64,000 nucleotides of DNA from Prorocentrum cordatum (Eukaryota > Sar > Dinophyceae > Prorocentrales > Prorocentraceae). The position numbers were made by a program, and so were the translations under genes. The DNA is taken from positions 1-64,000 of the forward strand of contig CAUYUJ010017638.1 in assembly GCA_963575745.1 (NCBI GenBank), written 5' to 3'. The notes under the pieces were generated by a model. That model was not told the DNA's origin. It made no database searches and saw nothing but the letters and a program-made list of their open reading frames with translations. Of the stretch, positions 24,355 through 56,429 are shown in pieces; the stretch's first letter is position 1, and every line of letters starts with the position of its first letter.

Positions 24355-24382
24355 CGACTAGGCTGGAAAGCCTGCACAGTCG
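24355..24382 (+). other. 3' stem-loop of the non-autonomous element, copy 1
   Basis: CGACT-AGGCT-GGAA-AGCCT-GCAC-AGTCG: outer and inner 5-bp stems, a GNRA-type loop and a 4-base bulge on the 3' side. Identical to the LINE-A stem-loop at 48091-48118. Likely the RT recognition structure. Confidence 0.85.
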
Positions 24383-24400
24383 ACCGCAAAGTCCGCAAAA

Positions 24401-24525
24401 CCAAGGTTGACGGTTTACCGCCGGCGCCCAGTTGGCCGACCCGACCTTAAGAGACAATGTGACGACATGGGGTTGGTTATTCTATCTTTCTGCAAAAGTT
24501 GAAAGTTCGTTTCACAAACAGAGAC
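24401..24525 (+). repeat. Hairpin A remainder and a U1 scrap
   Basis: CCAAGGTTGACGGTTTACCG, then GCGCCCAG|T closes the interrupted S element. It is followed by TTGGCCGACCCGACC and about 80 bases of U1-like sequence. Confidence 0.75.
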
Positions 24526-33776: not shown

Positions 33777-34071
33777 CTCAAGAAATCTCGGCTCAAGGCG
33801 CTTGACATTTGATCCCCTCTGCCTGGGTAACCTCCAGTGGGATCGAGTGCGCGTCAGGGGGTCACACGTTTGTCGCCTAGAGTGATATTGCACTGCCATT
33901 CATTTGACACGTTTGATCGCCTTGAGTGGTCTTCAATTGATTTGTTTCACACGTTTGTCGCCTAGAGTGATATTGCGCTGCCATTCACTTGACACGTTTG
34001 ATCGCCTTGAGTTGTCTTCAATTGATTTGTTTTGCTGGGTGCTTCCGAGGCAGTCTCTGCAATCTTTCGTT

Positions 34072-35067
34072 ATGCCACACGTACGGAGTGCAAGTGCTCG
34101 CATTCTGCGTCGGGCGCTGGCTGTTCAAAACGGATACTGTGTGCATTTACCTATTCGTTTGCCTCTGTATGGTTTGGTGCCACCCACGTGTCTCCCACCA
34201 CCAGGGCTAGAGCGGGCGACTGCCGATTTGGTTCTAGATTATCTCATGTTGCGCGATCCACCTGTTGTTAAACGCAGTTTGGAGGAGGAGGAGGAGGCTG
34301 ACATTAAGACTGTTTCGGAGAATCTTTCTTGCCGTATGCAGGCTTCTGAATCGCTGGTTTATGTAGATATTGGAGTGCAGGCTTCTGAATTGCTGGTTGA
34401 TGCTGGAGTGCAGACGATTGATGTTGCGGACTTTCATTGTGAAGTCGGCTGTCAGACAGATAGTGTCGTTGGGATGGAGGGAGGAGCTTCAGGAGTTCTT
34501 CTTGGGAAAGTGACCGTGGCGGTGGAGGAGGAGCTGGAGGCACCCTCGAGTGCGGAGTCTTCTCCGAACGTGCAGTATGATTCTGATAGCCGCGCCTTGT
34601 CAGGAGCGTCCCAGGGGTGTCTGAATCGCCCCGTCACGCTCAATGAGGTATCGAAGGAGTCGCGCCAGAGGACTCGAGGGAGAGATCGTGACAAGGTCAA
34701 GGGGACATCGACGTGCTCTCAGGCCACCATTGCCGATGTCAAAGCGTGGATTGACGCTGTTGCCAGCATCAACGAGTTGAATGCGATCCAGTATTTAAAG
34801 AACGGAATGGATTTGTTTGATAAGCTGGTGACAGAACGTGGGTTCCCTACAAAGAAGGCCCAAAAAGATTATGCTCGGAAACTGTATGAGATGCTCCAGA
34901 ATGTGCAAGCGACGCTGGAGGATCTTCTAGGATTCTTCGAGGTGCACAGGTTCTTGACAGGACAAATGAACCGCGCCGAGATGGCCAAGTTTCTTGAGGT
35001 TTCCAAATGCAGCGATTACCGAATAATATTCTTCGGACGCCCGAGGAGTTTCGACAAGTTGGGATGA
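34072..35067 (+). CDS. Uncharacterised 331-residue protein of the non-autonomous element, copy 2
   Basis: Same protein as at 22980-23975, same length, same ATG. Here the frame is also open upstream to 33904 through the 85-bp duplication, but that extension is frameshifted in copy 1 and I regard it as untranslated. By eye, all amino-acid differences between copies fall in the first 200 or so residues (for example M/L, H/Y, S/L, V/A, R/G, R/C). The C-terminal 130 residues differ only by silent changes. The GVQ motifs are kept (GVQAS, GVQTID, GCQTDS). Confidence 0.7.
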   Translation: MPHVRSASARILRRALAVQNGYCVHLPIRLPLYGLVPPTCLPPPGLERATADLVLDYLMLRDPPVVKRSLEEEEEADIKTVSENLSCRMQASESLVYVDIGVQASELLVDAGVQTIDVADFHCEVGCQTDSVVGMEGGASGVLLGKVTVAVEEELEAPSSAESSPNVQYDSDSRALSGASQGCLNRPVTLNEVSKESRQRTRGRDRDKVKGTSTCSQATIADVKAWIDAVASINELNAIQYLKNGMDLFDKLVTERGFPTKKAQKDYARKLYEMLQNVQATLEDLLGFFEVHRFLTGQMNRAEMAKFLEVSKCSDYRIIFFGRPRSFDKLG

Positions 35068-35445
35068 AGCTATTCGTGCGCACTTGTATGCAACTTTCGG
35101 TTTAGAACAGCGAAGGCTGTAATGCTTGTATCTCACCTGTTCTTGTCTTCCTCACTTTATCTCTCTGTTTGACCTCTCGCAGGAGCCATGATGGCTCTAC
35201 GGCCCGCTGTGGGCCCCACTAAGCGCTTCAGGTGTGTAAAGGGCAGGAGCCCCTCATATTCTTCAGGTGACGTTCTTCCACGGGTTGTTTCCCCGTCTAA
35301 TTCGTTGATTACTTCACATGTGACGTCGAGCATACGCCTCTTGTCATACGGCGGGTTGAACATGCGTATTTCGGACTGGTTTGATGTGAATAAGAGTTTG
35401 TGCTCACTCACGCCTTGCCTGTTTGGATACGTCCGCTCCTTGCTC

Positions 35446-35473
35446 CGACTAGGCTGGAAAGCCTGCACAGTCG
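35446..35473 (+). other. 3' stem-loop of the non-autonomous element, copy 2
   Basis: Identical in sequence to the stem-loop at 24355-24382, 15 bases before the terminal A run. Confidence 0.85.
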
Positions 35474-35488
35474 ACCGCAAAGTCCGCA

Positions 35489-36585
35489 AAAAACCAAGGT
35501 TGACGGTTTACCGCCTGCGCCCAGTTCAATAATTCGTTTGAGCTCTAGTATTTTTTCCCGTGATATTTGATCTTATTCCCGATCGCCATCTTGATCTCAG
35601 CTCGATTGGGTAGCTTTTACTGCCAAAAAAGCACACGGGCGGGATCGGCCGTTTCGAGTCATCTTGATACGCGATGACGGTTTTCTCAAGATAACTCGAG
35701 CTTCAGGACAGCTACAGAGCTGGTTAACACAGCTAATCGATTTTGGATAATCAGACGCGTTCGCCTGTTCAAGCCAGAGGTCTGAACTCGGTCTGCTAGC
35801 CGAGCTAGGTCCGCAAACCTATTCGTACTATTCGAGTCATATTGACAGAGGCTCTCGGTTTTCTGTACTGAACTCGAGCTACAGGACAGCTACAGAGCTG
35901 ACACGTACAGAATCCGATTCAGAATCATCAGTGGCCGTTGTCTGTTGAATCCAGAGCTCTGAACTCGGTCTGCTGTCCGATCTAGAATTGCGAAACTATT
36001 CGTATTGTTCGAGTCATCTTGAGAGATGCTGTCGGTTCTCTGCACTTAACTCGGGCTGTAGGAAGGCTGCATGGCTGGTAATCACTGGAATCGATTCGGA
36101 GACATCAGGCGCGTCTGCCTGTCGAATCCAGAGCTCTGAACTCTGCCTGCTGCCCGAACTAGGTCCGCGAAACTATTCGTATTGTTCGAGTCATCCTGAG
36201 AGGTGCTGTGGGTTTTCTGCGCTTAGGGGGGCTGCAGGGCTGGTAATCACAGGAACCGATTCAGAGACATCAGACGTGTATGCAGAGGTCTGAACTCGGT
36301 CTGATACTCGAGCTAGATTTGCCAAACTATTAGTATTGTTCGAGTCATCTTGAGAGGTGCTGTCGATTTACGCACGTAACTCGGGCTGTAGGAGAGCTAC
36401 AGAGCTCGTACAGAAGACAATTCAGAAGCATCGGGAGCGTTCGGCTGCTGCATCCGAGAGGTCTGAAATTGCTTGGGCTGAAAAACTATTTGTTCCATGT
36501 AATTTTTTCAACATTACATATTGTCAGGAAGCTCTACGAGTCCCCCGGCGGTAACAAAGGTTGACGGTTTACCGCCGGCGCCCAG
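35489..36585 (+). repeat. S hairpin remainder and S array unit 6
   Basis: CCAAGGTTGACGGTTTACCG, then CCTGCGCCCAG closes unit 5 at 35524. Unit 6 starts in the late leader and ends with hairpin A at 36585. Confidence 0.85.
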
Positions 36586-37901
36586 TTGGCAAGCAAAATC
36601 TCGACGGACCTTTTGCTGACTTTGGGTCGGTTGAAAATTTTGTTCTCGAAATTCAACAATTCGTTTGAGCTCTAGTATTTTTCCCGCTCGATCTTATTCC
36701 CGCTCGCCATCTTAATCTCAGCTCGATTGGGTAAATATTTCTGCAAAAAAGCATCGCGGCGGGATTGGCTGTTTCGAGTCATCTTGATACGCGATGACGG
36801 TTTTCTGAACATAACTCGAACTTTAGGACAGCTACAGAGCTGGTAAGCACAGCTAATCGATTCAGAATGATCAGGCGCGTTCGCCTGTTGAATCCAGAGG
36901 TCTGAACTCTGTCTGCTAGCCGCGGCCGCGCTAGGTCCGCAAACCTATTCGTATTATTCGAGTTATCCTGACAGACGCTCTCGGTTTTCTGTACTTAACT
37001 CGAGCTGTAGGGCAGCTATAGAGCTCATTCTCACAGAAATCGATTGCGAATCATCAGGCGCGTTCGTCTGTTCCATCCAGAGGTCTGAACTCGGTCTGCT
37101 GCCCGAGCTAGGTTCGCGAACCTATTCGTAGTTCGAGTCATCTTGAGAGATGCTGTCCGTTTTCTGCACTTAGCTCGGGCTGTAGGGGGGGTACAGGGCT
37201 CGTACTAACAGGAATCGATTCGGAGACATCAGGCGCGTCCGCCTGCCCAATCCAGAGCTCAGAACTCGGTGTGCTGCCCGAGCTGGGTCCGCAAACTATT
37301 CGTATTCGAGTCCTCTTGAGAGGTGCTGTCTGTTTTCTGCACTTAACTCGAGCTGTAAGTGAGCTGCAAGGCTGTTAATCACTGGAATCGATTCGCAGTG
37401 ATCCATCGCGTCCGGCTGTCGCATTGAGAGCTCTGAACTCGGTCTGCTGCCCGAGCTAGGTCCGCGAAACTATTCGTATTGTTCGAGTCATCTTCATGCA
37501 GTCGATTTCTGCGCTTAACTCGGGGTGTAAGGGGTCTGCAGGGCTGTTGATCACAGAAATCGATTCGGAGACATCAGGCGCGTCCTCCTGTTGCACTCAG
37601 AGGTCTGAACTCGGTCTGATACTCGAGCTAGATTCGCGAAACTATTCGTATTGTTCGAGTAATCTTGGGAGGTGTTGCCGATTTTCGCACGTAACTCGGG
37701 CTGTAGCAGAGCTACGGAGCTCGTGCGCACAGAAAACGATCCAGAATAAGGAGCGTTCGGCTGTTGCATCGAGAGGTTTGACATCGCTTGGGCTGAAAGA
37801 CTATTTGTTCTCTGTATTTTTTTTCGACATTCTATGTTGTCAGGAAGCTCTACGAGTCTCCCGGCGGTAACCAAGGTTGACGGTTTACCGCCGGCGCCCA
37901 G
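36586..37901 (+). repeat. S array unit 7
   Basis: Leader, about seven monomers, trailer and hairpin A. One monomer has CTAGCCGCGGCCGCGCTAGG in place of CTAGCCGAGCTAGG, creating a NotI-like GCGGCCGC. Confidence 0.85.
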
Positions 37902-41200: not shown

Positions 41201-42381
41201 TAACTCGGAGAGCTTCCCTTAGCAAGTTGTTGCTGGAAGCTTAAGAGTAATTCCGGCGCGCTGGAGAGCTAGTTGGCGAGAAAAATTTCGACGGAACTTT
41301 TGATGATTTTTGGTCGGTTGAAAATTATGTTCTCAAAATTTGAACATTCGTTAGAGCTCTAGTATTTTTTCCCGTGGTATTCGATCTTATTCCCGCTCGC
41401 CATCTTGATCTCAGCTCGATCGGGTACCTTTTACTGCCAAAAAGCACGCGGGCGGGATCGGCCGTTTCGAATCATCTTGATACACGGTGGCGGTTTTCTG
41501 AACATAACTCGAGCTATAGGAGAGCTTCAGAGCTGGTAAGCACAGCTAATCGATTCAGAATGATCAGGCGCGTACGCCTGTTGCATCCAGAGGTCTGAAC
41601 CCGGTCTGCTAGCCGAGCTAGGTCCGCAAACCTATTCGCATTATTTGAGTCATCTTGACAGGCGCTCTCGGTTTTTTCGTACTTACATCGAGCTATATGA
41701 CAGCTACAGAGCTGATGCTTAAATAAACCGATTCAGAATATCAGTCGCGTTGTCTGTTGGGTCCAGAGCTCTGAACTCGGTCTGCTGCCCGATCTAGAAT
41801 CACGAAACTATTTGTTTTTTTGTTTAGGTCATCTTGAGAGGTGTTGTCGGTTTTCTGTACTGAACTCAGGCTTTAGGGGGGCTATAGGGCTGATAATCTC
41901 AGGAATCGATTCGAAGACATGAGGCGCGTCCGTCTGTCGAATCCAGAGCTCTGAACTCGGTCTGCTGCCCGAACTAGGTTCGCGAAACTGTTCGTATTGT
42001 TCGAGTCATTCTGAGAGGTGCTGTCGGTTTTCTGCACTTAACTCGGGCTGCAGGGGGGCTGCAGGGCTGGTAATCACAGGAATCGATTCGGAGTCACAGA
42101 CGCGTCCCATTATTGCATTCAGAGGTCTGAACTCGGTCTGATACTCGAGCTAGGTTTGCCGAACTATTCGTATTGTTCGAGTCATCTCGAGAGGTGCTGT
42201 CGATATACGCACGTAACTCGGGCTGTAGAAGAGCTACAGAGATCGTATAGAAGAGAATCCAACATCAGGGGCGTTCGGCTGTAGTATCGAGAGGTCTGAA
42301 ATCGCTTGGGCTGAACAATTCATCGTTCTCTGCAATTTTTACGACATTATATATTGTCAGGAAGCTCTACGAGTCCCCCGG
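41201..42381 (+). repeat. S array unit holding LINE-A
   Basis: D start, leader and five monomers. It reaches GAGTCCCCCGG at 42381, where LINE-A starts. The hairpin is completed at 48137-48170. Confidence 0.85.
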
Positions 42382-42458
42382 CTCAAGACATCTCGGCTCC
42401 AGGGCTCCAGGATCCCACTGGGGCTCAGGGGGCGTCGGCGTCGCGGGGAGACGGCGCG

Positions 42459-42474
42459 GCAGCCATCGCTGCCA
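42459..42474 (+). promoter_or_regulatory. 5' UTR hairpin GGCAGC-CATC-GCTGCC of LINE-A
   Basis: A perfect 6-bp stem with a 4-base loop inside a GC-rich 5' region. The same hairpin with the same upstream bases (GGCGC) occurs at 51099-51114 in LINE-B, although most of the 5' region has diverged. The shared motif GAGGTCAGC follows in both. Confidence 0.6.
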
Positions 42475-42516
42475 TCGACGGGTACGGCATCTTCGAGGTC
42501 AGCCAGGCTGCTCTCT

Positions 42517-43971
42517 TTGTTTGCTGCGCTTGTTATCTTTTGTTGTACGTGCGTGACGACGGACGGATACGACTTTTCGGTTCTCGCGAGAAGGTTTCAG
42601 CTGGAGGATATATCACCGACAGTGCCATATTTGCAGTACTCACAGGATTACGGTCAAAAGCCAGATACTGCTGTCGAGCGAGCTTCTCGTAAAAGACAAC
42701 TTCAGGATATTGAGAAGACCCCAGGTGACTACCCATTGGACGGAAGATTGAATACTGCCGATTCTACTCCAGATAGTGAGTCTGCTGTACCTCTCAGTGA
42801 ACGGACGGTGACACGACAGTGGTTGCACTCGTGGGGATACGGACCTCAGTGTATCGACACAATGCCCGAGCATGCAGATAACATGACGGTGGATGGCGGA
42901 GCCCCCCCTGTGAAGCGTAGTCGTGAGGAGGTTCTTGCTGAAAGGAAGGCCGCCTTGGAGGGGAAGGATGGTATGCAGAGCTTACTATTGCAGATGATGC
43001 ACAAGATGGATGATAATACTGAAAGGATCCAGGATGCCATAGGAGTTCAGGGGACCAAAATCGACGACGTTCAGGCCCAGGTCCAGAAGCAGGGTGTTAC
43101 GATTTCTAATTTGGAGACGAGCGTTCAAGGGCTTGAGACTAAACATAATCGACTCGAGACGATCGTCCAGGGGCTCCAGGGACAGGTTCGTGCGGGTTCA
43201 GTTGCCAGTGACGCTTCGACGAGGCCCGACAATACCAGGACGGGAAGATACCCGGCTCCTGGAACCACCTACTTCTCTCCAACGTATGTTGAACTCAAGG
43301 GATGGGTCACCAACTGGAGTGACAGGGATAGGAGGTCTCAGGAAATGCTCATGTGGGAGGATGTGAAGGTGCTCATAGATAACATTACAAATCATTGTCT
43401 TTCGGAGGATGATCGTGTGCACGTGTGTGTTGACGGTACTGAGCGCATTAACGCTGGCCGTTACATGTTCGGATCGGCCAAAATCAAATTCAAGCCAGGG
43501 ACCGACAGGGATATTATTTGGAGGGTCAAACGGTGCATCGACCTTGTGACGGTACCCCCTGCTAAACGCCCCGCGCCTCCTCCAGGAATCCAGATCGCTG
43601 CACCACAGTGCCTCATTGAGAATATGAAGCAGGTTATCAACCCTGAGTTGATCAAAGTCAGTGTCGAATGCCCAGAGTGGAAGAGGGACCACGCGAAGGC
43701 GGTGGGGAGATTCTGCGGCACTATTCGGAGCATGTGTACACAGATTGGTATCGAGCTTATTGCTGTGCGGGGGGAAATGGGACCGCCCAAATCGACTATA
43801 TGGACAGTGCCCACGACGGCCTCCCCGAGGCCGATGCTTCTGGCCGAGTTTACCACGACGCGGGCGACATGGGAGGTATCGAGTGAGACTGTCGACAGGT
43901 TGCATCAACTCATACCTGCATTTACTAAGACGAAGGCTGATATCGAGACGGAAGTCAACAGGAGGGTGTGA
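42517..43971 (+). CDS. LINE-A ORF1: coiled-coil nucleic-acid-binding-type protein
   Basis: The frame is open from the element's 5' end. The first in-frame AUG is at 42862 (MPEHADNMTVDGG), giving 369 residues. Protein-like sequence precedes it, including GYDFSVLARRF near 42572, which LINE-B repeats. I therefore list the open frame from 42517 and leave the start unsettled. Features: basic VKRSREEVLAERKAAL, a heptad coiled coil (QMMHKMDDNTERIQDA through LETIVQGLQGQV, about residues 150-230 of this frame), then a globular part with YVELKGWV, FGSAKIKFKPGTDRD and RGEMGPP, all matched in LINE-B. Coiled coil plus C-terminal domain is the general plan of L1-type ORF1 chaperones. No CCHC zinc knuckle. 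It ends NRRV with UGA at 43969-43971, and ORF2 follows in the same frame. Confidence 0.85.
   Translation: MFAALVIFCCTCVTTDGYDFSVLARRFQLEDISPTVPYLQYSQDYGQKPDTAVERASRKRQLQDIEKTPGDYPLDGRLNTADSTPDSESAVPLSERTVTRQWLHSWGYGPQCIDTMPEHADNMTVDGGAPPVKRSREEVLAERKAALEGKDGMQSLLLQMMHKMDDNTERIQDAIGVQGTKIDDVQAQVQKQGVTISNLETSVQGLETKHNRLETIVQGLQGQVRAGSVASDASTRPDNTRTGRYPAPGTTYFSPTYVELKGWVTNWSDRDRRSQEMLMWEDVKVLIDNITNHCLSEDDRVHVCVDGTERINAGRYMFGSAKIKFKPGTDRDIIWRVKRCIDLVTVPPAKRPAPPPGIQIAAPQCLIENMKQVINPELIKVSVECPEWKRDHAKAVGRFCGTIRSMCTQIGIELIAVRGEMGPPKSTIWTVPTTASPRPMLLAEFTTTRATWEVSSETVDRLHQLIPAFTKTKADIETEVNRRV
43969..43971 (+). promoter_or_regulatory. In-frame UGA between LINE-A ORF1 and ORF2 (candidate readthrough stop)
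   Basis: GTG UGA CGA CGA CGA. The codon after it begins with C, the base generally associated with leaky UGA. No other stop occurs in this frame between 42382 and 47941. LINE-B has CAU UGA CGG at the same junction. Confidence 0.65.
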
Positions 43972-46900
43972 CGACGACGACGCCGAACACCGTTCAAGGG
44001 GATCCGACTGGGTAGCTGGAACCTCAATCGGGCGGGGTCGGCCAATTTCAAGGGGAATGAGATTCTGAGGTGCCTTTCAATGCGAGATTGCATCTGGGGT
44101 GTCCAGGAATGCCAGAATCTTTTTGGAGGCAAATTCGATGCATATATCAGACGGTGTGGTCTATCATATCGTGTGAGTTGTGACGGTAAGTGTGGGTTAT
44201 TATTTAACAAAGAGTGGAGTACGTGTGTGCGTGAATCAATATGTCAATATGAACGGTTCTGTGTGGTGGTCTTTGGTAGTGGAAGTGCCCCTGTGATAGT
44301 TGCCTCTGCGTATCTTCCCGACCCCGGCGTCGAGAACGCCGTAGATGTGCAGTGCGTGGTGTTGGACGCGCTCGAATCAGTTATTCTCACTCTGCGCAGC
44401 CGCTGGAAGGGGGCGACTGTCTCTGTGCTGCTCGACGCCAACGTTGAGCTATCCCCATCAACTCAGCTGCAGTGCTCACGCACTGGGACTGTCTATGAGG
44501 CGGTGGGAAGTGCTACCAAGGAGGAGAGGAGGACTTGCGAGGAGGGAGGTGCACAGCGGGTGAGGAGGGACGTACGACAACAGTTGCGCGAGCGTGTTCT
44601 TTGCTTTCTAGGGCGCCTGGGGATGAAGGCTGCCAATTCGTTCTTGCCACGACGACTACACACATGGGAGAGCTACGGAGTATCTCGGTGGGGGACGTGT
44701 AAGAAGGTTCTTGATTACATTTTTGTTCCCAGGACGTGGGTGATCGATGAGATGACGGTTGAAACGATCATGAGTAATGGGGGGAAGACAAATCGTAGTC
44801 GTCTCAGCGACCATGGCCTGCTTCAGGGGACTTTTAGTGACACAGGCGCTGAGCTGGTCAAACGTAGTATCCCGACGGCAGCTCGTGAAAAGAGTTTGGT
44901 TGGTTATAAGACGGTGAATTGGGGGGACCTCAATATGGCGCGAAAGGAAATCGATCGGGTCTTGGGAGATGCCAATACTATTTGTTCTCCAGGGGACCTT
45001 GTGTCGACCACTATTCGGGCCTGTACTGAGCAGGAGGATATCAAATTCACGACTGCCACCACGGGACGGGGACTACCGCCAATTAGGCCTGCAGGACTCA
45101 CGGCCTGCCAGGAGATTTTGCGACGGAAGCCTCTGCCAGCGTCAGTGGATGTGCCCAGCTTGCGCAGACGTGCCAACGGACTGCGGAGGGAGTATCGTGC
45201 GGCGTTGGCCGCGTGGACCTCTCCTGCCTCCAGGCGCAAAGAGCGTCATGGTATCAAGCACCTCATTGTGCAGGGACGGATATCTGAGGACAGGGAGGAG
45301 TGGGTGGAGGAGATCAGAGCACATACCAGACAGAAGTATACTTCGGAGGAGGTCAGAGGACGGGATATGGCGATGTTGGAGGAGTTGAGGAGGGATGCAC
45401 AACAGAACCTATGTGACGGGTACTGCACTGAGGGACTGACAATGGCGGTGGTATGCCAGGCACGGTCACGTCTCAAGTCCAAGCGTGCCACCGGCCCCGA
45501 CAGGCTGCCTTGTGAAATCCTCAAGGCATTGCCGTGGGCGACTTTGCGTGGCGTTGCTCGGATGTTTGATGAGATATTTCGCTTGGCACGGCAGTACCCG
45601 CAGGATTGGAGGCAGATTTTGATCGCCTTCATGCCCAAGCTGCCGAGCTTGACATCGCTGACAGATGCGCGGTACCTCTGTCTGCAAAACAGTCTCAGCC
45701 GTTGGTACTCTGCTTGCGTGGTGATCTTGGTCGAACAATTTGTGTCTCGGGCTGGCCTCATGGGACCCCTGGGCATCTACGGCTTCCAGGAGGGACGTAA
45801 GACGGTGGAAATTGTGGGGGCCCTCAAGGCTCTGGCTCAACACGGGGACATCTGGGGAAAAGATCAGACGGTCCATATCGCTAACGCCGATATCAAACAA
45901 GCGTTCGACCACTGCAGCCTTCTAAACGCCAAACGTGCTATGTGCCATGCCAATATTCCTGCCTATCTCCAGTATGCTTTGCTATCACCGCTGGTTTGCA
46001 CTACGGGGTCGTTAGTTGTCGAGGGTATGGCCATTCACGACATCAACTGGGACGTCTGCATACGGACGGGCGGCCCTGAGGGGCCTCTTCTATTTAATCT
46101 TATCATATGTGCCATGTGGGGACCTATATTTCGGGATTGGGACAGTAGAGGTGTGGGGTATGTGCTGGAGGGCGTCTGTGGTGAGTATGAGCGACGGACA
46201 ACTGTGAACCACTTTGTGTGGGCGGACAACTGCTACCTTGTCTCTGCCTCCTCAACTATGTTGGCTCAGATGATGCACGATCTAACACTACCACTACATG
46301 ACTGGGGGATGAGATGGAAGGATAGCAGCCTGTTGTACATGACATGTGGGGAGAATGCTAAAGTGGACGGTGACGGACATATACTTACCAGCGAGGATTT
46401 GTGTATACCTGCGTGCTCGAGATATCAGGGCTTTAGACTTCGACGTGTTGGCAGTATGAAAGTATTGGGTCATGAGATTTTCTCCACATACCTAGTGCCT
46501 GCTCATCCTGATGTTGAATATCGCATCAAGGAGGCTCGAGCTTGTTTCATTGGACAATCGAATTTCTTTCGTAACAGAGCGGTTGCTGTTCGTGATAAGT
46601 TTTGCCGTTATCAAGACAAGGTGCAGAGTATGGCGTTGTATTGTCTAGAGACATGTACTGCGGATGCTTCCTCGCTACACATGCTCAATGCCTTCGAGGG
46701 ATGGTGTTTGTGCCGTATGTTTCGACGGCCGAGGAGAGAGGAGGAGACTATGGCGGACTGGAACCGACGACGGTACCACGAGGCCAGAGAGCAATTCCGA
46801 TCTTATGGATTTGCGAGTTTGGTGCAGAGATTTCTTCGTATGGTGTGGAACTCCGCGAAGGATGCTGCAGATTTCATTTCTATGATGTGTACTGCTTCTC

Positions 46901-47943
46901 ATGAGGATATATCTTCGACGCAACGTACGTGGAGAGATCACCACATGACTACGGTTGCGTATGGCCCATTGTGGGACAGACTCAGGACGGATGCGTCTGA
47001 GTGCTTGCGGGGTATGTTTCACTTCCAAGAGGCCTCGCAGCTAAAAAGGAGACATGTTAGTTCAGGTCGAGCTGTCGGCCAGAGATGCTGGCTATTTTCT
47101 TTCTGCGAATTCTACGGACTCAAATGGTGGGAGTCCTTTGTGCCGACAGATGCTGCGTATGTTCAGTTCTGCGAGCACATGTGTACACGGACGATGCTGA
47201 GTTACTTTCAGAAAAGAAAAGGGTACGGTACAACAGGTGGGGCCCCGCAGGAGGTACTTACTATCACACAAAGCGACCTACACACCTATGGGGCCCAAGA
47301 GGGCACTGCGGCGTTCAACGACAAACTGGCCAAACGTATTGCGTTACAAAATATGAAGGAGGTTGAGTACGACCTCGACTCATTTGGGATCCCTGTGTAT
47401 ATTTCTGGGGACAGTCTTCTGGTGGTGTCTTGGCTGCAGGGTGTCTGGAGGGTGCTAAATCGTACGTATCAAGATAGGATCAACAGAATGATAAACCAAC
47501 TCGACAACATGTGTCAAAGATATGGAATTAGGCCCGCCTGTCACGGGAGGGAAATTATTGACCACACATATAGGGAATGGAACACACGTGCAGATGTACT
47601 CACTCATACGGCCCGCGTCGGGCCACCAGTGATTCGAGATAGGATAGGGCTGCACGCCCCTCAGTTACAACAGGTGTTTCGCGTTTGTGCCATCAGAGCT
47701 GGATTCGATGGTGGTGTCTCTTGCGACGGCGTGGGAGTCGGGTGCTGGATAGATGTTGGAAGGGTATCGAGACTCTCAAGGCAGCCACTCAGCCATGAGA
47801 TCATTTGGACGGAGGTGTACAGTGCGGCGTTCTCGATTGATCCAACTTCAACAGTGACTGATGCCGAGGTCTCGGCCGTTGAGCATACGATTATGATCTT
47901 GCCGCGGGTTGTACAAGCGTATTTCGGACAGGATATGATGTGA
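43972..47943 (+). CDS. LINE-A ORF2: endonuclease, reverse transcriptase, permuted RNase H
   Basis: Open for 1323 codons directly after the ORF1 UGA and in the same frame. The first AUG (44080) falls inside the endonuclease, after the essential-looking LGSWNLN (44011-44028), so expression probably needs UGA readthrough. APE-type endonuclease: WNLN, GVQE (Glu at 44107), ASAYLPD, LLDANVEL, HTW, VLDYIFVP, LSDHG (about 44805). RT: motif A NADIKQAFD (Asp at 45889), motif B RTGGPEGPLLFN (about 46060-46101), motif C FVWADN (46216-46230; second Asp replaced by Asn). A LINE-typical thumb/linker follows (ALYCLETCTADASS). RNase H motifs come in the order SGDSLLVV (Asp 47410), WNTRADVL (Asp 47593), FDGGVS (Asp 47707), VTDAEVSAVE (Glu 47866), a circular permutation. 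Stop UGA at 47941. Confidence 0.9.
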   Translation, partial: RRRRRTPFKGIRLGSWNLNRAGSANFKGNEILRCLSMRDCIWGVQECQNLFGGKFDAYIRRCGLSYRVSCDGKCGLLFNKEWSTCVRESICQYERFCVVVFGSGSAPVIVASAYLPDPGVENAVDVQCVVLDALESVILTLRSRWKGATVSVLLDANVELSPSTQLQCSRTGTVYEAVGSATKEERRTCEEGGAQRVRRDVRQQLRERVLCFLGRLGMKAANSFLPRRLHTWESYGVSRWGTCKKVLDYIFVPRTWVIDEMTVETIMSNGGKTNRSRLSDHGLLQGTFSDTGAELVKRSIPTAAREKSLVGYKTVNWGDLNMARKEIDRVLGDANTICSPGDLVSTTIRACTEQEDIKFTTATTGRGLPPIRPAGLTACQEILRRKPLPASVDVPSLRRRANGLRREYRAALAAWTSPASRRKERHGIKHLIVQGRISEDREEWVEEIRAHTRQKYTSEEVRGRDMAMLEELRRDAQQNLCDGYCTEGLTMAVVCQARSRLKSKRATGPDRLPCEILKALPWATLRGVARMFDEIFRLARQYPQDWRQILIAFMPKLPSLTSLTDARYLCLQNSLSRWYSACVVILVEQFVSRAGLMGPLGIYGFQEGRKTVEIVGALKALAQHGDIWGKDQTVHIANADIKQAFDHCSLLNAKRAMCHANIPAYLQYALLSPLVCTTGSLVVEGMAIHDINWDVCIRTGGPEGPLLFNLIICAMWGPIFRDWDSRGVGYVLEGVCGEYERRTTVNHFVWADNCYLVSASSTMLAQMMHDLTLPLHDWGMRWKDSSLLYMTCGENAKVDGDGHILTSEDLCIPACSRYQGFRLRRVGSMKVLGHEIFSTYLVPAHPDVEYRIKEARACFIGQSNFFRNRAVAVRDKFCRYQDKVQSMALYCLETCTADASSLHMLNAFEGWCLCRMFRRPRREEETMADWNRRRYHEAREQFRSYGFASLVQRFLRMVWNSAKDAADFISMMCTASHEDISSTQRTWRDHHMTTVAYGPLWDRLRTDASECLRGMFHFQEASQLKRRHVSSGRAVGQRCWLFSFCEFYGLKWWESFVPTDAAYVQFCEHMCTRTMLSYFQKRKGYGTTGGAPQEVLTITQSDLHTYGAQEGTAAFNDKLAKRIALQNMKEVEYDLDSFGIPVYISGDSLLVVSWLQGVWRVLNRTYQDRINRMINQLDNMCQRYGIRPACHGREIIDHTYREWNTRADVLTHTARVGPPVIRDRIGLHAPQLQQVFRVCAIRAGFDGGVSCDGVGVGCWIDVGRVSRLSRQPLSHEIIWTEVYSAAFSIDPTSTVTDAEVSAVEHTIMILPRVVQAYFGQDMM

Positions 47944-48090
47944 TTTTGATTGTGCTCACTCACGCCATGCCCTCGTTTGTCGTGTGTGTGTGCTTGACCT
48001 CTCATCCTCCTAATAAGAGTTGGCTTTCGCCTCTGATCGTTTGGATCGGTGAGGCTTCCGCCTACTCCCGATGCGCCCGCTCCTTGCTTC

Positions 48091-48118
48091 CGACTAGGCT
48101 GGAAAGCCTGCACAGTCG
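48091..48118 (+). other. LINE-A 3' stem-loop
   Basis: Outer stem CGACT/AGTCG, inner stem AGGCT/AGCCT, GGAA loop, 3'-side bulge GCAC. The stem-loop lies 18-20 bases from the 3' terminus. Shared exactly with both non-autonomous copies and structurally with LINE-B. Confidence 0.85.
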
Positions 48119-48136
48119 ACCGCAAAGTCCGCAAAA

Positions 48137-50137
48137 AAAGAAAGGTTGACGGTTTACCGCCGGCGCCCAGTTTGAACATTCGTTAGAGCTCTAGTATTTT
48201 TCCCGTGATGTATGATCTTAGTGCGACTCGCCATCTTGATGTCAGCTCGATCGGGTGAATATTACTATCGGAAGGCACTGTGGCGGGATCGGCCGTTTCA
48301 AGTCATCTTGATACGCGATGACGGTTTTCTGAACAATTCGAGCTTTAGGACAGCTACAGAGCTGGTAAGCACAGCTAATCGATTTAGAATTATCAGGCGC
48401 GTTTACCTGTTGAATCCAGAGGTCTGAACTCGGTCTGCTAGCCGAGCTAGGTCCGCAAACCTATTCGTATTATTCGAGTCATCTTGACAGACGCCCTGGG
48501 TTTTCTGTACTTAACTCGAGCTATAGGACAGCCACAGAGCTGATACTTACAGAAACCGATTCAGAATCATCAGTCGCATTTGTCTGTTGGATCCAGAGCT
48601 CTGACCCCGGGCTGCTGCCCGATCTAGAATCACGAAACTATTTGTATTGTTCGAGTCATCTTGAGAAGTGCTCTCGGTTTCTGCACTCAACTCGGGCTGA
48701 GGGGGGCTACAGTGCTGGCGGTCACAGAAATCGATTTGAAGACATCAGGCGCGTCCGCCTGTCGAATCCAGAGCTCTGAACTCGGTCTGCTGCCCGATCT
48801 AGAATGACGAAACTGTTCGTATTCTTCGAGTTATCTTGAGAGGTGCTGTCGGTTTTCTGCACTTAACTCGGGCTGCAGGGAGGCTGCAGGGCTGGTAATC
48901 GCAGGAGTCGATTCGCAGACATCAGACGCGTCCGCCTGTCGCATTCAGAGGTCTGAACGAGCTGGTTTGCTACTCGAGCTGGGTTGCCAAACTATTCGTT
49001 TCATCTTGAGAGGTGCTGTCAATTTACGCACGTAACTCGGGCTCTAGGCAAAAAAACTATTCGTTCTCTGCATTTTTTCTCCACGTTATATATTGTCAGG
49101 AAGCTCTACGAGTCCCCCGGCGGTAACCAAGGTTGACGGTTTACCGCCGGCGCCCAGTCGGACGCACTGGCGGGCTAGTTGGCTCGAAAAATTTCGACGG
49201 AACTGACTCGTGGAGCTTCCCTAAGCTAGCAGCTGGAAGCTTGAGAGTAATTCGGACGCACTGGCGGGCTAGTTGGCTCGAAAAATCTCGACGGAACTTT
49301 TGGTGACTTTTGCTCAGTTGAAAATTATGTTCTCAAAGTTTGAACATTCGTTAGAGCCTTAGTATTTTTCCCGTGATCTATGATCTTAGTGCGACTCGCC
49401 ATCTTGATGTCAGCTCGATCGGGTGAATATTACTATCGAAAAGCACTGTGGCGGGATCGGTTGGCGAGTGCTATGTTGGTAGGTGCTGTCGGTTTTCTCA
49501 ACTTAACTCGAGCTATAGGCAAGCTACAGAGATGGCGAGCACAGCTTTCGGATTCAGAATGATGATGCGCGTCTACATGTGGCGGGATAATAATCAGCGC
49601 TGGATATGTAAGAAGTTATGATCGAAAAACCTCTTTGCATGAGTACTACACTTGATTGTGTGATTCGGTTTTCTCAACTTAACTCGAGCTGTAGGGCAAC
49701 TACAGAGCTCTTAGGCACAGCAGACGACTCAGAATCATCATGCGCGTCTGCTCATTGCGCCAGAGCTCTCGAAGTGAGCTAGAATTTGAGAATCGATTGA
49801 AAAACTTATTCACTATGAGTCGGAATGTTGGTAGGTGCTCTCGGTTTTTTCAGCTTAACTCGAGCTGTAGGCAAGCTACAGAGCTCTCAGGCACAGCAGG
49901 CGGCTCAGAATGATCATGCGCGTCTGCTCATTGCGCGCGAGCTTCCAATATGAGCTAGAATTCGAGAAACCATTCAAAACATATTCACTATGAGTCGGAA
50001 TGTTGGTAGGTGCTGTCGGTTTTCTCAACTTAACTCGAGCTGTAGGGCAGCTACAGATCTCTCAGGCACAGCAGGCAAGGAAGCTCTACGAGTCTCCCGG
50101 TGGTAACCAAGGTTGACGGTTTACCGCCGGCGCCTAG
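48137..50137 (+). repeat. Hairpin remainder and two S-type units
   Basis: GAAAGGTTGACGGTTTACCG closes the interrupted S hairpin at 48170. One standard S unit ends at 49157. The next (49158-50137) begins with D-like pieces and uses a diverged monomer type (TATGAGTCGGAATGTTGGTA, GAGCTAGAATTYGAGAA). It ends GCGCCTAG|T, a CTAG terminus instead of CCAG. Confidence 0.8.
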
Positions 50138-51001: not shown

Positions 51002-51067
51002 ACCAAGTACCTCGTCTGGATCAAGGCGTCTGGATCAAGGCGTCTGGATCCCACAGGCGTCTAGCGT

Positions 51068-52579
51068 GTGGGGGGGGGTGCGTCGCCGCGGGCGGCGCGG
51101 CAGCCATCGCTGCCTTCTTCGTCTTCTTCGGGTTCAGCGAGATCGAGGTCAGCTAGGCCGCTGCACTTGTTATTGTTATTGTGTGTGCTAGGCCGCCTGC
51201 ACTTGTTATTGTTATTGCTACTGCTGCAATTGTCTCTTTTCCTTTCTCTTGGAACGACGGAGTGCTGGGGATCCGACTTCAGTCACGCGGACTGGGACTA
51301 TCTTGCTAGACAGGTCGGGACACCTCGAGGTGACAGGAGAGCTGTTATTTGTGTGCCATCGCTCACACCAACAGTACCGTTTGTGCAGGGTGAAGGTTAC
51401 GATTTCCATATCTTGCGTAACCACTTCGTGCAGGGTGAAGGTTACGATTTCAATATCTTACGCAGCCACAAAAGGAAGATGGCTGCTGCAGGTTCTTCAG
51501 TTTCAGGTGTTGCACCAGCGATGCCAGCAGGTTCTTCAGTTTCAGGTGCTCCAGGCTTGCATGCGGTGGGCCAGGACATGACAATTGATGATGGGGGTGG
51601 GGCGTTTGCTAGAGCTGTCCGTGCTCGTAATGTCAAAGGAGCAGGGAAAGGAGAAGGAGGAGGTGCGGGACAAACGTTGGGTGCGAATGAGGTTGCCCAG
51701 GAAGCAGGCCTTGACATTGAACAGATGTTTCGATCCATCATGACGGGACAACAGACTATGACGGCAGACATGCAATCGTTCAGGAACTCTATTCGTACGG
51801 AAATGGACGGTCTGAAAACATCTCTGGACTCCAGGGTATCAAAAACAGAATCGGCGATCCAGGACCTCACCAATGAAGTTCAGAAGCTCAAGCAGGGGGA
51901 CGGGCTGTCGGTAGCAAGTGGATCCACGAAGGCGGGTACGGACAGGCACGATCCAGGTTGGAATCCACGTTATGTTGAGTTCAAAGGGTGGGTTTCAAGG
52001 GAGGGATGGAGGAACCGTGAGATACGTCAGCGGGAGGCTCTTTCACAGGAGGCACTGACGACGGCGATGAATGGTCTCATTGACTCTAAACAAATTGATG
52101 CTACACAGAGGGTGGCACTGGACTTGGATCGGACGGTTCAGGAGAATACTGGTAGATATTGGCCGTACACGAGGGGTAGGATCTATTTCAAGCCAGGTAC
52201 ATCCTCTGAGATCCTATGGGAAGCGAAACGTGTGTGGGAGAATGACTACAGGCGGGGACTCACTTCATTGCCTCCCAATGTGCGATTTCAAGTTGAATGC
52301 CAGCCATGGAAGATAGAACATGTTCGGGCGGTAGGACGGTTTCAAGCACTATTTTCTGATGTCAAGAAAAATGCGACGGCTATTCTTCGAGGTGAGACGG
52401 GTCCGCCAATGACATATATGTGGTATATGCCGAATGCTGATGATACTACACAAAAGACTTTGATTGCAGAATGGGGACCGACAAAAGGATGGAACCTCTA
52501 TGGTGATAATTTGACACACGTTGAGCCCGATATTCATCAGGTGCAGTTTCTTCAGGCACTACGGTGCCCGAATCATTGA
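51068..52579 (+). CDS. LINE-B ORF1: coiled-coil nucleic-acid-binding-type protein
   Basis: The frame is open from just after a TAG at 51062-51064. The first AUG is at 51479 (MAAAGSSVSG), giving 366 residues, close to the 369 of LINE-A. Upstream, a 45-bp in-frame duplication (51380-51469) encodes FVQGEGYDFHILRNH twice with variation, echoing GYDFSVL of LINE-A. Downstream: duplicated PAGSSVSG-type repeats, MTIDDGGG, a coiled coil (MFRSIMTGQQTMTADMQSFR through VQKLKQG), then YVEFKGWV, IYFKPGTSSE and RGETGPP, matching LINE-A. Ends ALRCPNH with UGA at 52577-52579. Confidence 0.85.
   Translation: MGGGASPRAARQPSLPSSSSSGSARSRSARPLHLLLLLCVLGRLHLLLLLLLLQLSLFLSLGTTECWGSDFSHADWDYLARQVGTPRGDRRAVICVPSLTPTVPFVQGEGYDFHILRNHFVQGEGYDFNILRSHKRKMAAAGSSVSGVAPAMPAGSSVSGAPGLHAVGQDMTIDDGGGAFARAVRARNVKGAGKGEGGGAGQTLGANEVAQEAGLDIEQMFRSIMTGQQTMTADMQSFRNSIRTEMDGLKTSLDSRVSKTESAIQDLTNEVQKLKQGDGLSVASGSTKAGTDRHDPGWNPRYVEFKGWVSREGWRNREIRQREALSQEALTTAMNGLIDSKQIDATQRVALDLDRTVQENTGRYWPYTRGRIYFKPGTSSEILWEAKRVWENDYRRGLTSLPPNVRFQVECQPWKIEHVRAVGRFQALFSDVKKNATAILRGETGPPMTYMWYMPNADDTTQKTLIAEWGPTKGWNLYGDNLTHVEPDIHQVQFLQALRCPNH
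51099..51114 (+). promoter_or_regulatory. 5' UTR hairpin of LINE-B
   Basis: GGCAGC-CATC-GCTGCC, identical to the LINE-A hairpin and at a similar distance from the element's 5' end (about 80 bases). Confidence 0.6.
52577..52579 (+). promoter_or_regulatory. In-frame UGA between LINE-B ORF1 and ORF2 (candidate readthrough stop)
   Basis: CAU UGA CGG. ORF2 continues in the same frame, and the next in-frame AUG (52691) lies after the endonuclease WNV motif. Same arrangement as LINE-A at 43969. Confidence 0.65.
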
Positions 52580-55500
52580 CGGGGCGGTAGGGCTGCGACA
52601 GAGACCGTGGTCGCAACCTGGAATGTGCAGAAAATATCCGACGGTCAAGTACCCAACCTGGTCGCTGCATGTGAAGCCAGGTCAATTCAAATGGTGTGCC
52701 TGCAAGAGTGTGAGCATACCAGTGCAAATACTTTTAACAGATGTGGATGGGAGATTCACTATAGCTCCTGCTCCAAGGCGGCGGTTGCATGGTGCAGGGA
52801 TTGGGCACCACATGTGATTGCTCGACGGAGTGGGGTACGATTTGCGTGTGTTGAATTCAGGGGTGCTCTAGTTACATCAGTGTATCTACCATGTGTGATG
52901 CGTGATGTGGACCACTTGGGGGAATATTTAGATGTACTTACTAAGTGCAGTGTTACTATGTTTCAAACTACACAGGCTGGAGTCATACCATGGGTGGGGA
53001 TGGATGCTCAGACGGAACTTGAACCAGATATGCTGGGAATGACGGGAGGAGGTCTTATGCAGGTGGACGGGAGGAGGGAGGAGGCGAACTACCATGCAGA
53101 GAGGAGGGACATGCTTATGAGGTTCATGAGTACTTGGGGGATCTGTGCGGCGAACACATATGGAGACCGACGTATCACACATATACCGTACTGTTCCACA
53201 CATGTACAGCGTGTGCTTGACTATATACTCATCCCTACACGTTGGTGCGCGGATGAGGCAAGAGCTCACCAGGAAATGAGATGCCAGGTCCAGTTTGTGG
53301 AACCCATCAAAGCTACGCCAGGTATACGTGCAAAAGCCAGTGCCTATAGTGATCACGCTCTGGTCTGGGTAAATCTCAAGACGACGGAGATCAGGCGCCC
53401 AGCTTTGCCACCCCGCCCTGTGTCCATGGTTGGCTGGCAGCCGACGGATGACACGGCGAGGAACATGTTTCGTGTGCTTGCGGATGTGTCGATTGAGGGA
53501 CTTGCATCGGACACGGTAGGGACGGACCTGCAGCAGGTCGGACGGGTACTCTTGGAGACGGCAAAGCTTGTGGACCACACTAAGGGGCGCCCCAACTGCA
53601 AACCTATTCAGAGGCCCAGGGAGCTCATAGAGGTGGAGTCTGCCATCAGGCGTGGGGCCCTTGGGAATACTCGTAAACAACTGCTGCGTAGGAGGAAGAC
53701 CCTTAGGAGACAGCATAGGAGGAACCAACTCCTGCAGGACCACAGGGGATCCAGTAAGACCTCACGGTGTATCCTCAAGGAGCTGGAGTGTGAGGGTGTG
53801 CTGACAATGGACAGGACTAGGTGGAGTACGGAGATCACTAGGTATGCGACGGCGTCTTACACGAACTCGGAGGAGGAAAAACGGACTTTGGAGGCCTTTC
53901 AGGAACTCAGACACAACGACCGTGGGGTGGAGGGAAGAGTCATCACGATGGGCATGCTCATGCAGGCTCGTGCGTCTTTGAAGCCTGGCACGGCACCCGG
54001 CAGCGATGGAGTCGTTGCGGAGGTCATTCGTGAGTTGCCGTGGAGGAGCCTCTTGTTTGTGCGGCGGGCTTTCCAGGGGATTTTCGAGCAGGGAGCCTCC
54101 AGCCCTGAGACGTGGAGGCAGCTCAGTATCCAACTTGTGCCGAAGATGCGGGATGCTACACGACTCTCTAACACCAGAGGGATTTGCCTGATCAGTGTGA
54201 TGAGTAAATGGTACATGGCATGTGTGTTGCAGTTTATTGATGCTTTTCCTGTGAACCGACGGTTGTGCACATACGGATTTGAGAAGGATCAGAAGGTTAC
54301 TAACGTCACGGCACCACTATCACATCTCACTAGACATGCAAATGTGTGGGGGAAGGCGGAGTCTATGCACGTGGGAGTCTTGGACATACACAAAGCTTTC
54401 GATAATGTCACACTGCACACTATTATCAAGGCCATGCTGTACCTTAAGTACCCTGTGTGCCTCATCAGAGCCATTGTGGAGCCCATGCTGGATAACATTG
54501 CTACCTTTGAGTTTCAGAACGTGTGCGGCGATGAGGTGAGATACAACAAATCGGTCCGAACGGGAGGTAAGGAGGGACCCATACTTTTCAATATTGTCTT
54601 GGAGGCCATCTGGGGATCTGTGATTCAGACTTGGGATACCTTAGGATACGGTGTCCGACTGGAAGGGGAGGGGACGGACGGTGCTCTTGTACACCACTTC
54701 CTGTGGGCGGACAATGTTACGCTCTGTGCTGCATCGCAGCTCCAGCTACAACAGATGATCGGTATGATGACGGTAACACTCAGACGGGCAGGGATGGACT
54801 GGAAGGAGGACTCTTTGGCGTATGTACTTTTTGGCCAGACGTACACAGGTGGCGATCCGCCGCTGCTCTGCCCGCTCTCACCAGCCATCTGTGCGATTTC
54901 TGGAGATGAGGATCTCCCAGAGCACTTGCGCTCGACTGTCGTTATGCCGAGGAAGGAGGAGGTGGAGGTACTAGGAGTGAAGCTCAGCTCGGAAATCAAG
55001 GGATATCACGGCTTGTATCATCGACTGGAGAAAGGGAGGAAGGCCTATTTTGCTGACATCCAGTTTTATCGCTCCAGATCGGTCTCACCCAAAGAGAAGT
55101 TTCGCAGGTATACCGCTCGTGTGCAGTCTGTGGTGTACCACGGATGTATAGGCTGGCCGTGCAATCTACGACTGCTGGAGAGGATTAAGGTCTGGGAGGG
55201 GAGGTGTCTCAACGGTATGCGAGGATTACATAAGAGGGAGGAAGAGACGTGGGAGGAGTTCAGGGACAGGACCACACCGAAGTCATACGAGCTATTCTTG
55301 CAGGCTGGCCACTGCAGTCTCCGAGAGAAGGTGGTCCGAGCCAATTTCGAGTTTGCGTTGGAGCTGGCCCAGTTTCATGATCGGGCCTTCGCCTCCACGG
55401 ACTTGCGTGGGGCACGAGCCTGGCGTCAGACGCTGCAGGCCATGTTACACTGTGCGGGGGAATGGTCACTACGGAGGGACACACTTGTATCCATGTTCAC

Positions 55501-56362
55501 GGGAGCCAGGAGGAGGGAAGGTACGAGGAGAGTGGGAGGGAGAGCGCATGCAAGCACTGACAGCTGGCATTGTCTTATGCTGGCGGCGAGTGGTAATTTA
55601 CGCTGGTTCAGCATCAAGTGGAATGCGACGGACTGGTGGAATGTAGTTGCGTGCATGACAAAAATACAGCCTCGATGGGAGCCCATCTTCAGGAAACCGC
55701 CCTGTGCTCCTTGCCCTGTGGATACGTGGGACTCCCCTGAGGACTCCGACAGGCTCGCCCGTAGGATTGCCCACGGATATAACAACGAAACTGTCTGGCA
55801 GGAGGGCTCGGAGAGCTCATTGTTGGTTGAAATGACTGGTGATAGTATGTGTGTGGTGAACTGGGCCCGAGGGATCTGGGAATGCCGTGATCGTTCGTAC
55901 CGCAGGAGAGTGCACGGTCTACAAAACGATATGAATCAACTGGCGGAGGATTACGACATCAGGTGTGCCACTGTAGGGACGGATCCGTGGAAGCATATCT
56001 ACAGAGAGTTCAATTGTGTTGCGGATGAGTTGACTTGGGAGGCGAGGAGGGGAAGGACGGGAAGATGGATTGACTTCAGATATTTACGACAACAGAGACA
56101 TTGTATCAAACGTATCCGTGGAGGATGGGACGGTGGCGTGAGTGTTGAAGGCTCTGCTCTAGGTTGCTATGTGGAGGTCTCATTTGGGGACAACCACTGG
56201 CGACGAGTTTTCCAGGAGGCTTCTTTACTCCCTCTGGGGGCCACTGTTACAGATAGCGAGCTCACAGCTTGTGAACGCCTGCTCCAAGGTGTTCGGCAGA
56301 TTATCTCTGAGATCCTCGGGCCTCCAACCCCAAAGAGGTTGAGAGGGCGTGAGGGACCCTAG
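52580..56362 (+). CDS. LINE-B ORF2: endonuclease, reverse transcriptase, permuted RNase H
   Basis: 1260 codons after the ORF1 UGA, same frame. Endonuclease: VATWNVQK (Asn at 52622), CLQECEH (Glu at 52706), TSVYLP, VLDYILIP, YSDHALVWVN. RT: APGSDGV, motif A VLDIHKAFDN (Asp at 54383), motif B RTGGKEGPILFN (about 54556-54591), motif C FLWADN (54701-54715; Asn in place of the second Asp), then AGMDWKEDSLAY. The linker has YHGCIGWPCNLRLLERIKVW, as in other LINEs. The RNase H motifs are permuted: TGDSMCVVNW (Asp 55841), EFNCVADEL (Asp 56024), WDGGVSVEG (Asp 56129), VTDSELTACE (Glu 56258). Ends RGREGP with UAG at 56360. Confidence 0.9.
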   Translation, partial: RGGRAATETVVATWNVQKISDGQVPNLVAACEARSIQMVCLQECEHTSANTFNRCGWEIHYSSCSKAAVAWCRDWAPHVIARRSGVRFACVEFRGALVTSVYLPCVMRDVDHLGEYLDVLTKCSVTMFQTTQAGVIPWVGMDAQTELEPDMLGMTGGGLMQVDGRREEANYHAERRDMLMRFMSTWGICAANTYGDRRITHIPYCSTHVQRVLDYILIPTRWCADEARAHQEMRCQVQFVEPIKATPGIRAKASAYSDHALVWVNLKTTEIRRPALPPRPVSMVGWQPTDDTARNMFRVLADVSIEGLASDTVGTDLQQVGRVLLETAKLVDHTKGRPNCKPIQRPRELIEVESAIRRGALGNTRKQLLRRRKTLRRQHRRNQLLQDHRGSSKTSRCILKELECEGVLTMDRTRWSTEITRYATASYTNSEEEKRTLEAFQELRHNDRGVEGRVITMGMLMQARASLKPGTAPGSDGVVAEVIRELPWRSLLFVRRAFQGIFEQGASSPETWRQLSIQLVPKMRDATRLSNTRGICLISVMSKWYMACVLQFIDAFPVNRRLCTYGFEKDQKVTNVTAPLSHLTRHANVWGKAESMHVGVLDIHKAFDNVTLHTIIKAMLYLKYPVCLIRAIVEPMLDNIATFEFQNVCGDEVRYNKSVRTGGKEGPILFNIVLEAIWGSVIQTWDTLGYGVRLEGEGTDGALVHHFLWADNVTLCAASQLQLQQMIGMMTVTLRRAGMDWKEDSLAYVLFGQTYTGGDPPLLCPLSPAICAISGDEDLPEHLRSTVVMPRKEEVEVLGVKLSSEIKGYHGLYHRLEKGRKAYFADIQFYRSRSVSPKEKFRRYTARVQSVVYHGCIGWPCNLRLLERIKVWEGRCLNGMRGLHKREEETWEEFRDRTTPKSYELFLQAGHCSLREKVVRANFEFALELAQFHDRAFASTDLRGARAWRQTLQAMLHCAGEWSLRRDTLVSMFTGARRREGTRRVGGRAHASTDSWHCLMLAASGNLRWFSIKWNATDWWNVVACMTKIQPRWEPIFRKPPCAPCPVDTWDSPEDSDRLARRIAHGYNNETVWQEGSESSLLVEMTGDSMCVVNWARGIWECRDRSYRRRVHGLQNDMNQLAEDYDIRCATVGTDPWKHIYREFNCVADELTWEARRGRTGRWIDFRYLRQQRHCIKRIRGGWDGGVSVEGSALGCYVEVSFGDNHWRRVFQEASLLPLGATVTDSELTACERLLQGVRQIISEILGPPTPKRLRGREGP

Positions 56363-56372
56363 GGACTCTGCA

Positions 56373-56402
56373 CGGCTAGGGCGCACGCGCCCTGTGTAGC
56401 CG
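56373..56402 (+). other. LINE-B 3' stem-loop
   Basis: Outer stem CGGCT/AGCCG, inner stem AGGGCG/CGCCCT, CACG loop, 3'-side bulge GTGT. Same architecture as the LINE-A stem-loop, with a G-C pair replacing the A-T pair in the outer stem. Confidence 0.85.
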
Positions 56403-56429
56403 ACCCCAACACCCAACCAAGTACCTCGT

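Follow-up and report, generated by a model that had tools for sequence, protein, structure and literature searches.

A probable natural circular permutant of archaeal-like RNase H in a dinoflagellate LINE lineage

Introduction

Ribonuclease H (RNase H) has a fold known from textbooks, which serves as a model in studies of protein folding and of two-metal catalysis. In the first 64,000 nucleotides of contig CAUYUJ010017638.1 of Prorocentrum cordatum (assembly GCA_963575745.1, forward strand; this whole stretch is referred to as the window), the second open reading frame (ORF2) of LINE-A, a long interspersed nuclear element (LINE), ends with RNase H motifs whose order is not the canonical one. 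What does this order represent: one rearranged domain, the remains of two, or an artefact? The original prediction, made from the DNA letters, was that the domain is a circular permutant in which the strand bearing the first Asp and the helix bearing the Glu had been moved to the C-terminus. The profile tests, the predicted order of the structural elements and the failure to find a first half upstream, all detailed below, support this interpretation, and the last ~190 residues of ORF2 very likely form an archaeal-like type 1 RNase H domain that is naturally circularly permuted. It is also probable that a catalytically active permuted enzyme, fed via beta4 and not via beta1, is fixed in the whole dinoflagellate LINE lineage, the rearrangement being perhaps old or repeated.

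Motif order and conservation of the catalytic residues

All four predicted motifs were found, exact to the base, on the + strand of LINE-A ORF2 (44080–47943, 1287 amino acids from the first ATG): at its C-terminal end GDS (47407–47415, Asp codon 47410) is followed by WNTRAD (47578–47595, Asp 47593), FDGG (47704–47715, Asp 47707) and TDAE (47857–47868, Glu 47866), the chain order of the catalytic residues being D-R-D-D-E. The identical motif order occurs in a second element of the window, LINE-B, whose ORF2 (52580–56362, + strand) contains a permuted RNase H at 55838–56260 with GDS at 55838, FNCVAD at 56009, WDGG at 56126 and TDSE at 56249. Since the two ORF2s are only 28% (tblastn) or 30% (alignment) identical, the permuted order is old relative to the LINE-A/LINE-B split.

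The C-terminal portion of LINE-A, used as query in a protein search, retrieved one full-length relative, P0003 (49% identity over 87% of the query), and a profile of three domains retrieved nine further relatives, P0004–P0012, P0008 being from P. cordatum. P0011, which contains nothing after GDS, was left out and P0004, 95% identical to LINE-A, was counted with the latter, leaving 10 usable sequences, namely LINE-A, LINE-B and eight database proteins (P0003, P0005–P0010 and P0012); these are not all independent, P0005 and P0006 being close to each other, and their identity to LINE-A is as low as 27%. The order GDS > RxxNxxA(D) > FDG > E is found in all 10 and, at the level of the motifs, is beyond chance. 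The Asp of FDG, the Glu and the Arg of RxxN are each conserved in 10/10 sequences, the Asp of GDS in nine (GYS in P0008) and the last Asp likewise in nine (Asn in P0007); all five catalytic residues are present in LINE-A, LINE-B, P0003, P0005, P0006, P0009, P0010 and P0012, one each being absent from P0007 and P0008. Furthermore, where His would stand ahead of the last Asp, all 10 have Arg, the criterion of archaeal-like RNase H (aRNH). The protein ends 19–47 residues past the Glu in 10/10 cases (24 residues in LINE-A ORF2), and in LINE-A and LINE-B this end is a stop codon, with no second half found downstream; the database proteins might end at a contig end. The permuted domain proposed for LINE-A is not a peculiarity of a single element but a lineage-wide trait, and the sharing of the rearrangement by distant relatives suggests that the shuffled enzyme still works. 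No further relatives came from family scans of viral contigs and genome contigs, despite pattern matches, and a protein search with LINE-B residues 540–1251, in which only the 8000 candidates sharing most words were scored, is of little weight, giving nothing at E<=0.001, P0003 included. An FDGG located upstream in P0006 (WWESFDGG) was taken as chance, being missing by eye at that place in P0003 and LINE-A.

These data leave a next to negligible probability that the motif order results from an assembly or frameshift artefact. The window is indeed rich in tandem repeats, but each of LINE-A and LINE-B has an uninterrupted ORF, LINE-B (51016–56415, + strand) is flanked by a perfect 14-bp target-site duplication (51002–51015 and 56416–56429, the only two + strand copies of this word in the window) and the same order is present in proteins of ena, lgn, jgi and ncbi origin, independent sequences by which the artefact is already refuted.

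The pairwise identities among the three full-length ORF2s are 38–60% for the half that comes first in the chain but second in the canonical enzyme (half 2), 30–48% for the other (half 1) and 29–38% for the endonuclease. On the other hand, the linker between the halves (LINE-A ORF2 residues 1182–1200) has 0/19, 2/16 and 1/16 identical positions in the three pairs and is the least conserved of the stretches compared. Conserved halves joined by a variable linker fit the idea of one closed domain under selection.

A tree was built with 46 of 113 rows, comprising the 10 permuted sequences and, picked at even steps, 20 of 39 RVT_3-like and 16 of 64 E. coli-like ones. Nine of the permuted rows form a single clade (100/100) without placement among the RNase H rows, whereas P0012 is outside it and all ten form one clade in 17% of the bootstrap trees, a bootstrap that had not settled. 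Since P0012, whose first half is more canonical, stands apart from the other nine, the rearrangement may be old or may have happened more than once.

Predicted structure of the domain

The AlphaFold2 model of the LINE-A domain, built with 11 sequences, has a mean predicted local distance difference test score (pLDDT) of 85.3 and a predicted TM-score (pTM) of 0.84. It is a mixed alpha/beta fold whose elements, named by comparison with RNase HI, follow one another as beta4-alphaB-alphaD-beta5-alphaE-beta1-beta2-beta3-alphaA, so that beta1 and alphaA, bearing the first Asp and the Glu, are C-terminal as had been surmised. The canonical chain order (beta1-beta2-beta3-alphaA-beta4-...-alphaE) is absent, and the order observed makes the domain a permutant and not a canonical member of type 1 RNase H.

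The first part (+ strand throughout) consists of beta4 (model residues 34–40, 47389–47409), alphaB (43–49, 47416–47436), alphaD (58–78, 47461–47523), beta5 (90–92, 47557–47565) and alphaE (99–110, 47584–47619), the end of the second half that has moved forward. It is followed by a poorly conserved linker between the old C-terminus and the old N-terminus (47620–47676), modelled as a short strand (114–117) and a short helix (124–129), and by beta1 (130–144, 47677–47721), beta2 (147–160, 47728–47769), beta3 (172–182, 47803–47835) and alphaA (189–212, 47854–47925, containing the Glu of TVTDAE). The model has two further elements, a short strand at 80–82 and a helix, alphaA0, at 4–20 (47299–47349), which is upstream of GDS, of low confidence and alphaA-like in look. 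Asp 41 lies right after beta4, Arg 95 (the Arg of REWN, 47572) between beta5 and alphaE, Asp 102 in alphaE, Asp 140 in beta1 and Glu 193 near the start of alphaA. RNase HI has its catalytic residues at these same elements.

A longer model (46957–47940; pLDDT 68.9, pTM 0.62) contains the same permuted elements. Upstream of beta4 it has only helices and no strand, a weak test insofar as pLDDT is below 50 for most of this region, and tblastn searches of the window with the C-terminal parts (E below 0.1) detected no further RNase H half; the canonical first half that might have been present upstream of GDS was accordingly not found by either approach.

The sequence would also be compatible with the halves acting in trans, half 2 of one ORF2 completing half 1 of another in a domain-swapped dimer, in which case the chain order would be less important. 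This is very unlikely, considering that the single-chain model is confident (pTM 0.84) and that the linker, of 19 residues in the LINE-A model, seems to have the length needed for a single chain to close on itself.

Profile tests of the permutation

The permutation was further examined with a family profile of nine sequences, compared with two reference alignments: an RVT_3-like set (38 viral ORFs from IMG/VR loci and a piece of 3u3g), which represents the best profile matches of the LINE-A family domain, and an E. coli-like set (63 viral ORFs from IMG/VR loci and the E. coli enzyme). In HHalign comparisons with the former, half 2 alone scores 76.9 and half 1 alone 26.6, the latter on profile columns 10–72, which correspond to the canonical first half; shuffles of half 1 score on average 10.8 and at most 17.0, none of 200 reaching 26.6. 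At the level of profile homology, both halves are thereby shown to be RNase H, although half 1 is unrecognised by HHalign against the E. coli-like set (13.2) and undetected by HMMER in any of the nine family members (best 0.1 bits).

In its native order the family profile scores 79.7 over 70 columns of the RVT_3-like set, compared to 95.0 over 128 columns after un-permutation, with the four acids in register. When fixed blocks without linkers are used, the score of 79.3, over 68 columns that cover just the second half, increases on un-permutation to 93.9, over 128 columns that take in the complete domain, a value reached by none of 200 un-permuted profiles with shuffled half-1 columns (mean 80.0, maximum 87.0) nor upon reversal of half 1 (79.5). 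With alphaA0 and the linkers kept, 127–130-column matches are obtained, among 53 rotations tried, only from those starting between alphaE and beta1 (105–129).

The sequence that bridges the family to canonical enzymes is P0012, found by the family profile with an E of 1.5e-3 in 5.8 billion sequences. Its motifs are GDSLLVVNW, RKWNTRAD, then FDGASKGNPGPA and finally the Glu in TTSVMAE, and its first half is far more canonical than those of the other family sequences. As found, P0012 matches Pfam RVT_3 in two stretches with 20.4 bits (cut-off 21.6); un-permuted, it gives one RVT_3 match over positions 2–121 of 123 with 25.8 bits, and a match to PF00075 over positions 9–138 of 141 with 15.1 bits, under the cut-off of 25.8. 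In HMMER profile columns 71–143 precede 7–69 in the native protein, un-permutation producing a single match over 9–140 and an increase from 51.8 to 57.3 bits.

The case for the permutation has several weaknesses. With alphaA0 and the linkers kept, rotation of the family alignment brings no gain in score, so that gains such as that from 79.3 to 93.9 depend on omitting these parts, and whole-domain profile homology to type 1 RNase H is displayed by the family profile only when un-permuted and without linkers. The proposed comparison of permuted with unpermuted profiles favoured un-permutation for the family profile and for P0012, but the LINE-A domain itself is unrecognised by Pfam in either order. 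The native-order HMMER match ran, at low posterior, through the stretch before beta4, onto beta2-alphaA of 3u3g, and an order-dependent fold comparison gave weak matches only and was uninformative, the aligner following the chain order. Single sequences are also weaker, HMMER bits going up on un-permutation in 3/9 family members. In favour of the second half being RNase H, 3u3g, an RNase H, is first among the PDB matches of a three-sequence profile, although these are weak both ways (E 0.021 native, 0.028 un-permuted), as are the NCBIfam matches on LINE-A (PRK07708, E 0.0097; RNAseHI_Thmprot, E 0.13).

The HMMER alignment of the pre-beta4 stretch would also suit an alternative in which the halves belong to separate degenerate copies of RNase H, the products of a tandem duplication, forming no single active domain and serving as a structural tether like the inactive retroviral connection domain. 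Dual RNase H domains with a decayed older copy are described for long terminal repeat elements in the available part of PMC5348765, and a helix with Asp/Glu at one position, resembling a leftover alphaA, precedes beta4 in 8/9 family members (P0010 starts too late). Nevertheless, this alternative is unlikely, in that each catalytic residue is conserved in 9 or 10 of 10 sequences at identities to LINE-A down to 27%, neither half is less conserved than the endonuclease, and the leftover-alphaA idea fails the profile test. Indeed, in spite of a pattern ([DE]xLxxRxAx) resembling ExxAxxxAL, alphaA0 was rejected as evidence of a tandem duplication: by itself this helix aligns to a different part of the profile, and the score obtained on adding it is equalled by 58/200 shuffles.

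A possible mechanism

Returning to the single permuted domain, the chain would enter from the reverse transcriptase (RT), via a linker, at beta4, proceed through alphaB, alphaD, beta5 and alphaE, cross the short variable linker that bridges the former C- and N-termini, and continue through beta1, beta2 and beta3 to alphaA, the C-terminus of ORF2; the new chain ends would fall between alphaA and beta4. The catalytic set of Asp, Glu, Asp, Arg and Asp would meet in one two-metal site, where the domain could degrade the RNA of the element within RNA:DNA hybrids produced by the adjacent RT, presumably freeing the first cDNA strand of RNA during target-primed reverse transcription. As to its origin, the domain may, for example, have been duplicated in tandem, the outer halves then being lost.

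Relation to known systems

Judging from its sequence, 3u3g is of the archaeal-like kind. In the available parts of PMC5348765 and PMC4640811 the aRNH of plant and oomycete LINEs is defined by a D-E-D-R-D set; the aRNH (Pfam RVT_3, the 3u3g kind) of plant Ta11 L1, oomycete L1 and Utopia is likewise carried by non-LTR retrotransposons and has the same Asp-Glu-Asp-Arg-Asp set, Arg replacing His, but in the canonical order D-E-D-R/H-D as opposed to D-R-D-D-E in the LINE-A family. Human LINE-1 ORF2p (8sxt), whose residues 396–687 align with LINE-B RT residues 395–680 (E 5.3e-10) and whose chain is of 1275 residues compared to 1251 in LINE-B ORF2, differs in that non-LTR RTs such as this one are said, in the part available of PMC10830420, to encode no RNase H of their own, unlike LINE-A and LINE-B with their permuted domain.

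As to precedents, among AlphaFold DB clusters the CIRPIN preprint describes a single case of two RNase H-like domains that are circular permutants of each other (PMC12667903); its available text names no organism, protein or catalytic residues for the pair and contains 0 occurrences of "retro". Neither "permut" nor "circular" occurs in the main text of the RNase H-like superfamily survey PMC3985635. Among the literature matches listed, none concerned a LINE whose RNase H is permuted, as judged by title and beginning of the abstract, with subscription journals little covered, and the parts available of PMC5408684, PMC2628886, PMC3710099 and PMC5670126 have no bearing on precedent.

If true, a natural permutant with the catalytic set kept would mean that evolution can cut the RNase H fold between alphaA and beta4, and would offer a ready test of the effect of chain order on folding. 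It would also explain why standard scans miss RNase H in the LINE-A/LINE-B family (no Pfam RNase H above cut-off), so that published tallies of how often retrotransposons gained or lost RNase H may be too low.

The elements and their surroundings

LINE-A spans ~42.4–48.1 kb (42360–48144), its ends being judged by the repeat unit that it interrupts; no target-site duplication of at least 11 bp was found for it in the stretches compared. Its ORF1 (42517–43971, + strand, 484 amino acids, TGA stop at 43969) has only weak, coiled-coil-like Pfam matches, all below cut-off, and is followed by the ORF2 frame (43972–47943, + strand), comprising a putative endonuclease, the RT and the C-terminal permuted RNase H. 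The RT matches RVT_1 with 50.9 bits in LINE-B, 33.2 in P0003 and 28.2 in LINE-A, the last slightly under the Pfam cut-off of 29.6. The endonuclease motifs WN, QE, DAN and SDH, read by eye, form what we take to be an APE-type pattern; no Pfam endonuclease match is among those listed, from which filters drop most above E 0.1. RT motif C, usually [FY]xDD, is WADN in all three full-length ORF2s (residues 714–717 in LINE-A, 700–703 in LINE-B and 710–713 in P0003).

ORF1 and ORF2 lie in the same frame in LINE-A and LINE-B alike, with just one TGA, and a C after it, between them (TGA CGA at 43969–43971, TGA CGG at 52577–52579), and the first in-frame ATG of ORF2 (44080 in LINE-A) is 3' of the endonuclease WN motif, so that readthrough of the stop codon is a possible route to ORF2. 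When 121 nt surrounding each ORF1 stop were folded, no readthrough stem-loop better than shuffles was revealed (z 0.70 and -0.10), and a full-text search on readthrough likewise listed, by title and beginning of the abstract, no LINE whose RNase H is permuted.

No Rfam match at gathering score was found in the window, across which a ~173–178 bp tandem repeat forms many arrays (e.g., 5982–6863 and 36773–37781). Two short elements (22663–24403 and 33758–35496) contain ~1-kb ORFs with no Pfam match at E<=1 and have a 3' end in common with LINE-A; all three adjoin the repeat-unit sequence AAGGTTGACGGTTTACCGCC, a pattern that would fit insertion of LINE-A and a pair of non-autonomous relatives at a single site of a repeat.
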